Assembly (NCBI RefSeq): GCF_031624395.1
Contig: NZ_JAMQON010000001.1
Coordinates: forward strand, 310,001-374,000
DNA: 64,000 nt
Origin: Halomicroarcula saliterrae
Lineage (GTDB): Archaea > Halobacteriota > Halobacteria > Halobacteriales > Haloarculaceae
Reading direction: 5' to 3'
Numbering within the stretch: the stretch's first letter is position 1; each line of letters starts with the position of its first letter. Both the position numbers and the translations under genes were made by a program. Below, piece by piece: positions 7,365-59,118 of the stretch. The notes beneath the pieces were generated by a model. It ran no database searches. It saw only the letters and a list, made by a program, of their open reading frames with translations, and was not told the origin of the DNA.

Positions 7365-7610
7365 TTCTGAAGGCTTCAACTGTCTTTTGACCCACGGCTC
7401 GGGGTTCTATCGCATAGTGAGAGACAGTACAGCTGCCAGTACACGTTACATATCCGAAAACGAATACGTGGCCATGCTGTGTGGACCGGGGCAGGCGCGC
7501 GAGTGACACTCGACAAAATCGAGTGGGGGACGCTCGTCGCACCCGACGTGTAGCCCGCTCGGTGCCCGTTCTCACGGGTCGCTTCGCACCCCTTCGACCG
7601 TAACGAGGAA

Positions 7611-7625
7611 CTACCGCTCCTCGCT
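7611..7625 (-). repeat. Short third copy of the spt5 3' terminus
   Basis: CTACCGCTCCTCGCT at 7611 is identical to the first 15 bases from the spt5 stop codon at 7904, and recurs at 7664 with one change. Three tandemly arranged copies of the same gene end suggest repeated local duplication or slippage. Confidence 0.55.
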
Positions 7626-7663
7626 ACGTTCTCGCGGCTCCGCCGCTCGAACTGTCCGGGGAG

Positions 7664-7757
7664 CTACCGCTCCTCGCGATCCAGCACGCGAATCCGGTCG
7701 CCCCGAACCGTCACGGGAATCGCGACCGTCGTTTCGTACAGCTCGACGGTCACCTAG
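7664..7757 (-). pseudogene. Truncated, degenerate copy of the 3' end of spt5
   Basis: About 94 bases align without gaps to 7904-7997, the last 31 codons of spt5, with about seven substitutions. One change turns a CAG codon (Gln) into TAG in frame, so the copy cannot encode the same tail. No spt5 sequence lies upstream of it. It is therefore a partial duplication placed just downstream of the intact gene and free to decay. Read on the minus strand it still ends with the gene's own stop codon. Confidence 0.7.
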
Positions 7758-57064: not shown

Positions 57065-58420
57065 ATGGAAGACGTAGACGTGGCCATCGTCGGCGGCGGT
57101 CCGGCGGGGTCGTCGGCCGCCGAGGCGGCCGCTGCCCGCGGCGCCGAAACGGTCGTCCTGGAGAAGGGCGTCCCCCGCGCCGACCGCGATGGCCCCGGAC
57201 CGGATTCGACCGACGCTGCCGGGTTACTGGACTACTGGCTCGACCTGATGGAGTACGAGCCCGACGAGATTCCCGAGGACATCGTCCTCAGCGAGCTGGA
57301 GGGGGCGAAGTTCTACGGTCCCGACAGCGAGCTGGCGCTGACCGAGACCGGCATCGACGCCAGCTACGACGGCTTCGGCTTCACGTTCCACCGCGCGAAG
57401 TTCGACGACTGGCTCCGCGTGCGGGCCGAGGACGCCGGCGCCGACTACCGTGTCGGGGTCAACGTCACCGGCGTCGAGACGGAGCTCACCGCCTCTCCGC
57501 GCCACACCGTCCACCTCGCCGACGGCGAGGACATCCGGACGGACTACGTCGTGCTGGCCGACGGGCCACAGCGGACCGTCACCGGCCCGACGCTGGACCA
57601 GTTCCTGCTGGACCGTCGGATGGGCGATATCATGCCCTCGAACGAGGCCAACCACATCGCCTACCAGGAACACCGCCGGATGCCCGAGGAACTGTTCGAC
57701 CCGGAGTTCATCGAGTTCTGGTGGGGGATGATGCCCGGTCACACCGCCTACCCGTGGATCTTCCCGAACGACGACCACGTGGCCCGAATCGGGCTGACGA
57801 TGCCCATCGGACTGGACATCGACGACTTCGAGCGGAGCGAGTGGGCGCTCCTGCGCGACGACGACGAGGGTATCCCGCGGGGGACTCAGTACATCGAGCG
57901 CTTGCTCGAACGGCAGTTCCCCGGCTACGAGCTCGACGACTTCCCGGTCGTCGAGAACCGTGGGAAAGCAAAGGGCACCGAGACGTACCCCATCTCCTCG
58001 ACGCGGCCCATCGAGTCGCCGGCCGGCGCCGGCATCGCCGTCACCGGCGGCGCGATGGGCGCGACTTCCGCCTTCCACGAGGGCGGCGACCACGTCGCGG
58101 TCCGCACCGGGAAGATAGCGGGCCGGCTGGCCGCCGAGGAGTCCCTGGAGAGCTACAACAGCGAGTGGCAGGCCGCCATCGGCGACGAGATACTCCGGAA
58201 CGTCACCTTCGCCGACCTCGTCCGCGACTGGGGGCCACGCGACTGGGACCGCGCCTTTACCACCGCGAACGACCTGATGGACACCCGCGGAATCAAGGCC
58301 GACGCCGCGCTCAGGGGCGGGTTCCACGGCCTGCAGCTCGTCACCCAGTACAAGTACGGGAAGTTCGGCTACCGCGACGGGCGATACGTCCAGCTTCGGG
58401 AAGCGGACTACGCTATCTGA
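57065..58420 (+). CDS. NAD(P)/FAD oxidoreductase, geranylgeranyl reductase-like
   Basis: 451 residues. FAD site VAIVGGGPAGSSAAEAAAARGAETVVLEKG (about 6-35). The later VTGGAMGATSAFHEGGDHVAVRTGK (about 325) corresponds to the flavin-binding region of the GGR/FixC-like family. It could saturate prenyl chains or act in another flavin redox step. It lacks the C-terminal iron-sulfur domain of ETF-quinone oxidoreductase. A TTTTAG box about 30 bases upstream fits a leaderless start at 57065. Confidence 0.83.
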   Translation: MEDVDVAIVGGGPAGSSAAEAAAARGAETVVLEKGVPRADRDGPGPDSTDAAGLLDYWLDLMEYEPDEIPEDIVLSELEGAKFYGPDSELALTETGIDASYDGFGFTFHRAKFDDWLRVRAEDAGADYRVGVNVTGVETELTASPRHTVHLADGEDIRTDYVVLADGPQRTVTGPTLDQFLLDRRMGDIMPSNEANHIAYQEHRRMPEELFDPEFIEFWWGMMPGHTAYPWIFPNDDHVARIGLTMPIGLDIDDFERSEWALLRDDDEGIPRGTQYIERLLERQFPGYELDDFPVVENRGKAKGTETYPISSTRPIESPAGAGIAVTGGAMGATSAFHEGGDHVAVRTGKIAGRLAAEESLESYNSEWQAAIGDEILRNVTFADLVRDWGPRDWDRAFTTANDLMDTRGIKADAALRGGFHGLQLVTQYKYGKFGYRDGRYVQLREADYAI

Positions 58421-58532
58421 ACGTCAGGCTTAGGTACGGCAGTGTCGTAGTTCCGGTGCGCGCCTTTAATCCCCGGCCGAGGCCCGTCTATCGGGACGAT
58501 GAGAGACCGGAGAACCCGGGCGCGGTACATCC

Positions 58533-58739
58533 GGTGGCTTCGCCACCACGACTGGCAGGCGGTACCTGCCCGACTGGCGGCCGCGCTCGCCCGCCTGACG
58601 CTCGAAAGGCGTCACCGCCGCGACGGTTTGCGCCGTCTCGGCACCCGTCGCCCTAGCGGGCGACCTTCGAGCCGGCCGACGCCGGCTCGACAGCTAGCGG
58701 CGACTGCGTCGTCGCTCGCCCGGCACGAGGGTTTGCCGG
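58533..58739 (+). other. Array of eight consecutive stem-loops, candidate structured RNA
   Basis: Eight hairpins follow each other. Stems: 58533-58547 (6 bp, loop TTC), 58554-58570 (6 bp), 58596-58614 (6 bp), 58622-58637 (5 bp), 58647-58664 (7 bp, loop TAGC), 58667-58690 (10 bp perfect, loop CGAC), 58696-58716 (9 bp with one G-T pair) and 58720-58739 (6 bp). A promoter-like TTTAAT lies about 65 bases before the first. Strand assignment assumes the rightward promoter. No known RNA family was recognised. Confidence 0.4.
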
Positions 58740-58866
58740 CTGACGTGGCACACCGCCGAGGATGATGCCGGACGTTAGTGTTCCGGGCGACATTTCGCTG
58801 TGCTACCAGTGTCGTCTACAGGCAGTCTGCGTGAGCACAGCGGGTGGGTCTCTCGCAGCGACCACC

Positions 58867-58873
58867 GTTATAC
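58867..58873 (+). promoter_or_regulatory. TATA box of the DUF4177 gene
   Basis: GTTATAC, 24-30 bases before the ATG at 58897, which fixes that start over an earlier in-frame ATG at 58762. Confidence 0.5.
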
Positions 58874-58896
58874 AGCTACGCGAAGAACTGTCAGTG

Positions 58897-59118
58897 ATGA
58901 CCCAGTTCGAGACCGAGCGCTGGGAGTACGAGACGCTCAGAGCGCCCCGCGGAGAAACACAGAAGGAATCGGAGGACCCGAAAAAGGAGCTGAACGAACT
59001 CGCCGCCGAGGGGTGGCGGTTCGTCGAGACGATAGACTACTCCGGCGGCGGAACGAAGTACCTCGTGTTCGAGCGGGCGAAGCAGTCGGCTGACGACGGC
59101 GAGGGACCGCCGTCGTGA
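58897..59118 (+). CDS. DUF4177-family small protein
   Basis: 73 residues, MTQFETERWEYETLRAPRG and then LNELAAEGWRFVETIDYSGGGTKYLVFER: the WEY...GW...V..R pattern of DUF4177. Members have no known function. The start of the next gene overlaps its stop by four bases, so they form an operon. Confidence 0.8.
   Translation: MTQFETERWEYETLRAPRGETQKESEDPKKELNELAAEGWRFVETIDYSGGGTKYLVFERAKQSADDGEGPPS

Follow-up and report, generated by a model that had tools for sequence, protein, structure and literature searches.

A hairpin-rich spacer inside a probable double H/ACA guide RNA gene of Halomicroarcula saliterrae

Guide RNAs of the H/ACA type in archaea follow a rule of distance, according to which 14-16 nt lie between the target and the ACA box (PMC7991803). 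In halobacteria, a double H/ACA RNA was predicted by Grosjean in 2008, and the passages of that work dealing with it already remarked on its "long spacer" (PMC2584109). As given in the same passages, the first module (HP1) was predicted for pseudouridine 2621 of the 23S rRNA, and the second one (HP2) for positions 1956 and 1958 (PMC2584109). The sections devoted to these RNAs in a more recent paper list Haloarcula marismortui as a carrier, and treat the motifs Hvo1 and Hvo2 of Haloferax as experimentally validated, citing Blaby 2011 (PMC4652768, 2015).

The locus described here belongs to a stretch of 64,000 nucleotides of the haloarchaeon Halomicroarcula saliterrae, hereafter the window, where an examination of the letters alone (the sequence-only reading) had noticed a row of eight stem-loops and suggested either an undescribed structured RNA or a decayed cluster of repeats. 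The analysis indicates that these eight hairpins form the spacer that separates two guide modules in the gene of a box H/ACA guide RNA, an identification to which we assign a probability of roughly 0.92. The RNA is indeed structured, as supported by compensatory changes, by its occurrence throughout the class and by a signal resembling a promoter, but it can hardly be called undescribed after its prediction in 2008. The row had also been placed in a gap flanked by the genes for a flavoprotein and a DUF4177 protein, and both neighbours hold, with the upstream protein matching families of FAD-dependent oxidoreductases and the downstream one DUF4177. The flavoprotein gene (57065-58420) shows in addition a weak geranylgeranyl-reductase-like match, below the cut-off, and by eye this gene seems, at many loci of the genus, to stop immediately 5' of the guide RNA.

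A DNA search with this stretch of the window matched 51 of 60 genomes, its own included, and many of the matches were restricted to parts lying outside the hairpins, namely a block at about 58456-58530 and another from 58717 on. Alignment of the relatives revealed two conserved hairpins, HP1 and HP2, separated by a highly variable spacer, which is the part that holds the eight hairpins (Table 1). A joint alignment of HP1, spacer and HP2 (A1) misaligned the hairpins and was left out of all counts.

Table 1. Features of the guide RNA locus, in positions of the window
Feature	Position	Strand	Basis or remark
Promoter TATA-like element CTTAGGTACG	58429..58438	+	upstream profile, 114 loci
HP1, first H/ACA guide hairpin	58454..58529	+	covariation (A2), model R2
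ORF of 88 codons, chance frame inside the RNA gene	58499..58765	+	not conserved
Interdomain spacer, eight hairpins	58530..58716	+	local fold
Hairpin 1 (5'-most)	58533-58547	+	local fold
Hairpin 2	58554-58570	+	local fold
Hairpin 3	58576-58595	+	local fold
Hairpin 4	58596-58614	+	local fold
Hairpin 5	58617-58642	+	local fold
Hairpin 6	58647-58664	+	local fold; perfect 7 bp stem, 4-nt loop
Hairpin 7	58667-58690	+	local fold; perfect 10 bp stem, 4-nt loop
Hairpin 8	58696-58716	+	local fold; directly abuts HP2
Clearest A-B unit of the window	58617..58665	+	R3 51.1 bits, E 2.8e-8
Second A-B unit of the window, B hairpin abuts HP2	58667..58716	+	local fold
HP2, second H/ACA guide hairpin	58717..58792	+	covariation (A3), model R1

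In HP1, the lower stem is formed by GCGCGCC (58458-58464) with GGCGCG (58519-58524), and the motif shows the kink-turn letters CGAG and GATGA, a 3' guide AACCC and a box ACA at 58527-58529, with the outermost pair lost in the window (G.G). HP2 comprises a lower stem CGCCCGG/CCGGGCG, a 5' guide GAGGGUU, a 3' guide (GU)UAGU, the kink-turn letters UGA and GATGA and a box ACA at 58790-58792. Compensatory base changes, which the sequence-only reading had put forward as a check, were found in both hairpins. For HP1, 96.2% of the cells of alignment A2 (51 sequences, 50 distinct) are paired, and two-sided changes affect 8 of 11 pairs, with 0/500 shuffles; four measures of covariation stood at 0/500 and a fifth one at 1/500. 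For HP2, 99.5% of the cells of alignment A3 (51 sequences, 38 distinct) are paired, two-sided changes affect 8 of 15 pairs and all five measures stood at 0/500. The covariance models for HP1 (R2) and HP2 (R1) each matched 385 of 391 genomes, a sample of the class that includes some of the suppliers of training rows for both models. A box ACA or ATA terminates each of the two hairpins in 51 of 51 sequences, a count that is partly given by construction because the pattern used to cut them out demanded A[CT]A, the place of the box following from the covarying stems. Above the pocket, both modules appear at the level of sequence to carry a kink-turn or kink-loop: the 5' GA and the 3' UGA of HP1 are invariant (51/51), and so are A27 and T47 G48 A49 in the alignment of HP2, where G26 reaches at least 90%.

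Some further features of the modules were observed along the way. By eye, columns 30 and 44 of A3, close to the kink-turn, co-vary within the genus as G/G, A/G or C/C, a non-Watson-Crick pattern hinting at two alternative pairings for the tip of HP2. Two genomes (G223 and G335) gave two matches each to both guide-RNA modules and two others (G009 and G325) a second match to HP2 only, perhaps corresponding to duplicated genes. A sequence close to CGACCKYTTGYAGCGYTCGCTWCGCTCRC, again by eye, recurs just downstream of HP2 in three genera (L035, L045 and L046), and may be a haloarchaeal intergenic repeat.

The halobacterial sRNA composed of HP1 and HP2 is presumably the one named sR-h45 in Blaby 2011. 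In the window, the AACCC of HP1 is predicted to pair with GAGCUGGGUU[U]AGACCG of the 23S rRNA and lies 14 nt from the box ACA. The putative partner of HP2 is GUAAC[U]A[U]GACCCUC in helix 69 (H69) of the same rRNA, with 14 nt from UAGU and 16 nt from GUUAGU to ACA, and the distance from target to ACA shifts by 1 where loci have one extra base before ACA. The target sites GGGGGUAACUAUGACCCUC and GAGCUGGGUUUAGACCG were found in the 23S rRNA of all seven relatives examined (7/7). When the pairing of guides and targets was ranked blindly, the HP1 site took rank 1-2 in 4/7 genomes and the HP2 (H69) site came first in 3/7, two of these being tied; the rRNA scans are noisy, as the loci include flanks. 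Since pairing alone is not decisive for the targets, the identity of the RNA was settled by the literature (PMC2584109). HP1 and HP2 guide pseudouridylation, according to the literature, by means of the Cbf5/Nop10/Gar1/L7Ae machinery, and the genes for Cbf5 and Nop10 were found in the genome above their cut-offs. Following those published assignments, the RNA of the window is predicted to direct pseudouridylation at positions 2621, 1956 and 1958 of the 23S rRNA.

A search of Rfam, which had likewise been advised, turned up nothing: Rfam 15 gives 0 matches in the window, and at 58400-58900 with E up to 10 the best candidate was aspS, on the opposite strand, whose 19.2 bits fall short of the cut-off of 42.5. 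Rfam 15 being blind to the guide RNA in the window, the gene may go unannotated. RNase P RNA was also considered for the hairpin locus and rejected, as the RNase P RNA lies elsewhere in the genome.

Upstream of the RNA, a profile of 114 loci, numbered from the TCCCC of HP1, showed an enrichment of TTA at -40..-38 and of A/T at -22/-21. The conserved TTA of the window is located at 58430-58432, and transcription of the guide RNA would be expected to start near 58457. A TTTAAT box had been thought to precede the hairpins; such a box does exist (58465-58470), but it falls inside HP1, about 35 nt downstream of the conserved TTA that resembles a promoter.

As to the hairpin series itself, the proposed comparison with shuffled controls came out clearly on the side of structure: the + strand of 58533-58739 folds at -121.9 kcal/mol versus -101.25 (sd 4.47) for dinucleotide shuffles (n=200), none of which was as good (z -4.62, 0/200). 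The - strand also folds well (z -3.48), as expected from near-perfect inverted repeats. A local fold with pairs at most 36 nt apart recovered the eight consecutive hairpins, among them the two perfect stems, of 10 and 7 bp with loops of 4 bases, that had been singled out. The series was nonetheless drawn too long, since it stops at 58716 and not at 58739; the latter end perhaps counts a CCGGCA/UGCCGG pairing (58720-58739), a competitor of those stems of HP2 that show covariation. When counting starts at HP2 and proceeds upstream, the window has linkers of 0, 5, 2, 4, 2, 0, 5 and 6 nt, a spacing that is regular in the HP2-proximal half of the spacer and irregular in its 5' half.

Linkers counted in this way over 81 spacers of all groups alternate, with means of 0.25, 4.19, 1.75, 3.15, 0.74 and 5.12 nt. 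In spacers having three or more hairpins, the odd-even difference was 3.04 nt for the genus (n=26) and 2.75 nt for the remainder of the family (n=20), values reached by 0/2000 permutations within spacers in both cases. No alternation is seen outside the family (-0.15 nt in 14 spacers, 1336/2000 permutations as high), and dinucleotide-shuffled sequences showed an overall difference of -0.03. The second and fourth hairpins from HP2 contain internal loops more often than the first and third (4%, 51%, 17% and 48% for the first four), an alternation that fades farther away (21% and 23%). Moreover, 7 of 41 long spacers, all of them in the family, contain direct repeats (12 nt minimum) spaced by 50, 52, 53, 53, 100, 101 and 152 nt. 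Judging from the linker alternation, the pattern of internal loops and the repeat spacing, the spacer of the family (58 loci) is built of tandem two-hairpin units of ~51 nt, with a copy number differing between species.

The layout of a unit is a hairpin A, about 4 nt, a hairpin B and about 0-2 nt before the next unit. Hairpin A recurs in several genera in the form GCC-UC-stem-UC-GGC with covariation, as seen in alignment A5, whose 30 units were hand-picked out of 94 for a clear A-B form, 26 of them from the family, so that the unit results lean that way. The unit model R3 gave 19 matches in 15 genomes, 18 of them in the guide-RNA spacer; it matched 9 of the 10 family genomes searched, with none in the tenth, and 0/5 outside the family, these 15 genomes being hand-chosen and several of them suppliers of training rows. 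The match of the clearest unit of the window (Table 1) is to be expected, as this unit is among the 30 training rows. The second unit scores lower (18.6 bits, E 0.063, at 58667-58712) because its A hairpin has an uninterrupted 10-bp stem with no internal loop.

In an alignment of nine close relatives (A4), the hairpins are 99.3% paired with 9 two-sided changes (0/500 shuffles). Three measures stood at 0/500 and the pairs with a two-sided change at 18/500, and further pair types were not above shuffles (500/500). The earlier idea of a decayed cluster of repeats was therefore correct regarding the repeats, given the tandem units of the family, but the stems appear to have been maintained and not to have decayed, both in A4 and in the covariation of hairpin A. 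A mobile palindromic element was rejected, with a single match of the DNA query in its own genome and 18/19 unit matches at the spacer. The off-locus unit match belongs to a relative (G002:C1:1804069; L285 about 1050-1185), where a two-hairpin unit of the same geometry sits in an intergenic hairpin cluster that adjoins the 3' end of a gene identified by eye as aconitase-like. In the window itself, several GC-rich hairpins (CTCGCGGCTCCGCCGCTCG, GGAGCTACCGCTCC) lie at 7590-7680, where R3 found a weak match (18.4 bits, E 0.068).

A broader view of the spacer comes from 114 loci, an uneven sample in which related species are not independent: 32 belong to the genus of the window, 26 to the remainder of its family, and 56 fall outside the family. 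L031, the rRNA loci and those repeating genomes already included were left out of the set, and L095, L120 and L145, where HP2 is present with no HP1 by pattern, stand outside the 114. Spacer length goes from 2 to 253 nt, with a median of 69.5 nt and less than 15 nt in 3/114 loci, these lengths carrying some error because the pattern places the end of HP1 2-3 nt early in a few loci (L001, 189 vs 187 nt). The median is 40 nt outside the family versus 140 nt for the genus and 103 nt for the other members of the family. Hairpins number from 0 to 10 per spacer, with two or more local hairpins in 86 of the 114 loci; they are the least conserved part of the RNA and are nearly absent at some loci. A hairpin abutting HP2, that is, a stem of 5 bp or more that ends within 2 nt of it, occurs in 100 of 111 spacers compared to the 42.8 expected from shuffles. 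As the excess holds for the genus (31/32 vs 12.4 expected), the rest of the family (23/25 vs 11.1) and outside it (46/54 vs 19.3), the abutting hairpin is a class-wide feature. For spacers of at least 15 nt (n=111), the mean folding z is -3.59 in the sense and -3.64 in the antisense strand, and G-U pairs in the hairpins are rarer on the sense (112/2982) than on the antisense strand (192/3103). Such equal folding of both strands, together with fewer sense G-U pairs, means that selection on the spacer at the RNA level is not demonstrated, and leaves room for a purely mutational origin.

What the array does for the guide RNA can be proposed only tentatively. At somewhat short of even odds, we suggest that it acts as a self-folding linker. 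Each hairpin would close on itself, which would reduce pairing between the GC-rich spacer and the guide modules, while the last hairpin, touching HP2, may be stacked on its base. Copy number would be free to drift, as any number of self-closing hairpins would be tolerated. In this regard, the mean predicted probability of the correct lower stem is 0.629 for HP1 with the native spacer versus 0.464 with shuffled ones (higher in 77/111 loci), and 0.639 versus 0.337 for HP2 (higher in 85/111 loci), reaching its highest values without any spacer (0.830 and 0.845, respectively). The window behaves in the opposite way, with native values of 0.22 for HP1 and 0.02 for HP2 versus 0.33 and 0.25 after shuffling, and the fold predicted for its RNA on thermodynamic grounds differs from the conserved one. 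These modelled values fit a self-folding spacer that would do little harm, a benefit not being demonstrated. With a probability clearly below one half, the spacer as a whole might be a selected RNA architecture, made of the class-wide hairpin stacked on the HP2 base plus the expandable chain of units of the family (A, hinge of ~4 nt, B, near-zero junction). If this were true, an extensible linker or platform would join two RNA-guided enzymes, evolving by gain and loss of whole units.

It is also possible, though we would not call it likely, that the guide RNA is real and the array has no function, slippage and template switching creating, perfecting and duplicating inverted repeats wherever self-folding is tolerated. 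A process of this kind would agree with a number of hairpins running from 0 to 10, with repeats at multiples of ~51 nt, with the lack of strand preference and the few G-U pairs, and with loci where the array is missing. The confinement of the unit geometry to one family and the similar hairpin pair found off-locus in 1 of the 15 genomes searched point in the same direction. Drift alone, however, does not obviously suffice for an HP2-abutting hairpin recurring throughout the class (46/54 vs 19.3 even outside the family), nor for a linker alternation present in two separate parts of the family. Rather improbable, in turn, is that the array binds a protein or makes up a third functional module, with the A-B unit or the HP2-stacked hairpin as a platform tuning the assembly or localisation of the RNP. 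The repeated geometry, the form of hairpin A recurring in several genera (in hand-picked rows) and the terminal hairpin abutting HP2 in 100/111 loci would suit such a platform, but loops are diverse, with the commonest, CTGACG, appearing 31 times and followed by many others, and no conserved single-stranded motif stands out besides an AWYY-like linker.

A free-standing regulatory sRNA unrelated to H/ACA would also account for the promoter-like signal and the structure, but is very hard to reconcile with the H/ACA pair being the conserved part and with hairpins that are the least conserved one, nearly absent at some loci. Finally, a small Arg-rich protein gene at 58499-58765 deserves practically no credence and was rejected, because its ATG does come after the TTTAAT box but opens just 11-67 codons in the 11 relatives checked, its product matches no Pfam family and the conserved letters follow base pairs, all of which vindicates the doubt already raised about this frame.

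Returning to the double guide RNA with its variable spacer, of 69 genomes that belong to the phylum but not to the class, 18 gave weak matches to HP2 (29/80 in all). Among 12 outgroup loci, corresponding to 12 of those 18 genomes, 8 have a weak HP1 match (E 6e-5 to 0.013) directly upstream of HP2, with a gap of 1-21 nt. Given such short gaps, the genomes sampled suggest that the expanded spacer is a trait of the class and the unit array one of a single family within it.

Altogether, the RNA itself is mostly already known, a housekeeping molecule present in nearly every sampled genome of the class, while the abutting hairpin and the modular spacer of the family are not described in the literature searched. 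As this search was made mainly at the level of titles and abstracts, the absence of the hairpin and unit structure from print is not established. The "long spacer" of the discoverers appears to have a construction rule in the family of the window. If functional, this rule would describe a modular RNA linker of variable copy number between two guide modules; if not, it would offer a clean natural record of the birth and loss of tandem hairpins inside an RNA gene. Intergenic repeats of the REP/MITE type are short GC-rich palindromes of variable copy number. The units of the window resemble them in both palindromes and variable copy number, but sit in one RNA gene (18/19 matches). The HP1/HP2 sRNA of Haloferax volcanii and other halobacteria has the same order of modules, the same 23S targets and a long spacer as in the window, and the passages that treat it only call this spacer long, with no hairpins or units mentioned there (PMC2584109, PMC4652768). 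As for the Thermococcales, stems II and III of Pf7 / Pab40 of Pyrococcus are named as homologs of HP1 and HP2 in the corresponding passages, where both hairpins are adjacent, unlike those of the window with their long spacer (PMC2584109).
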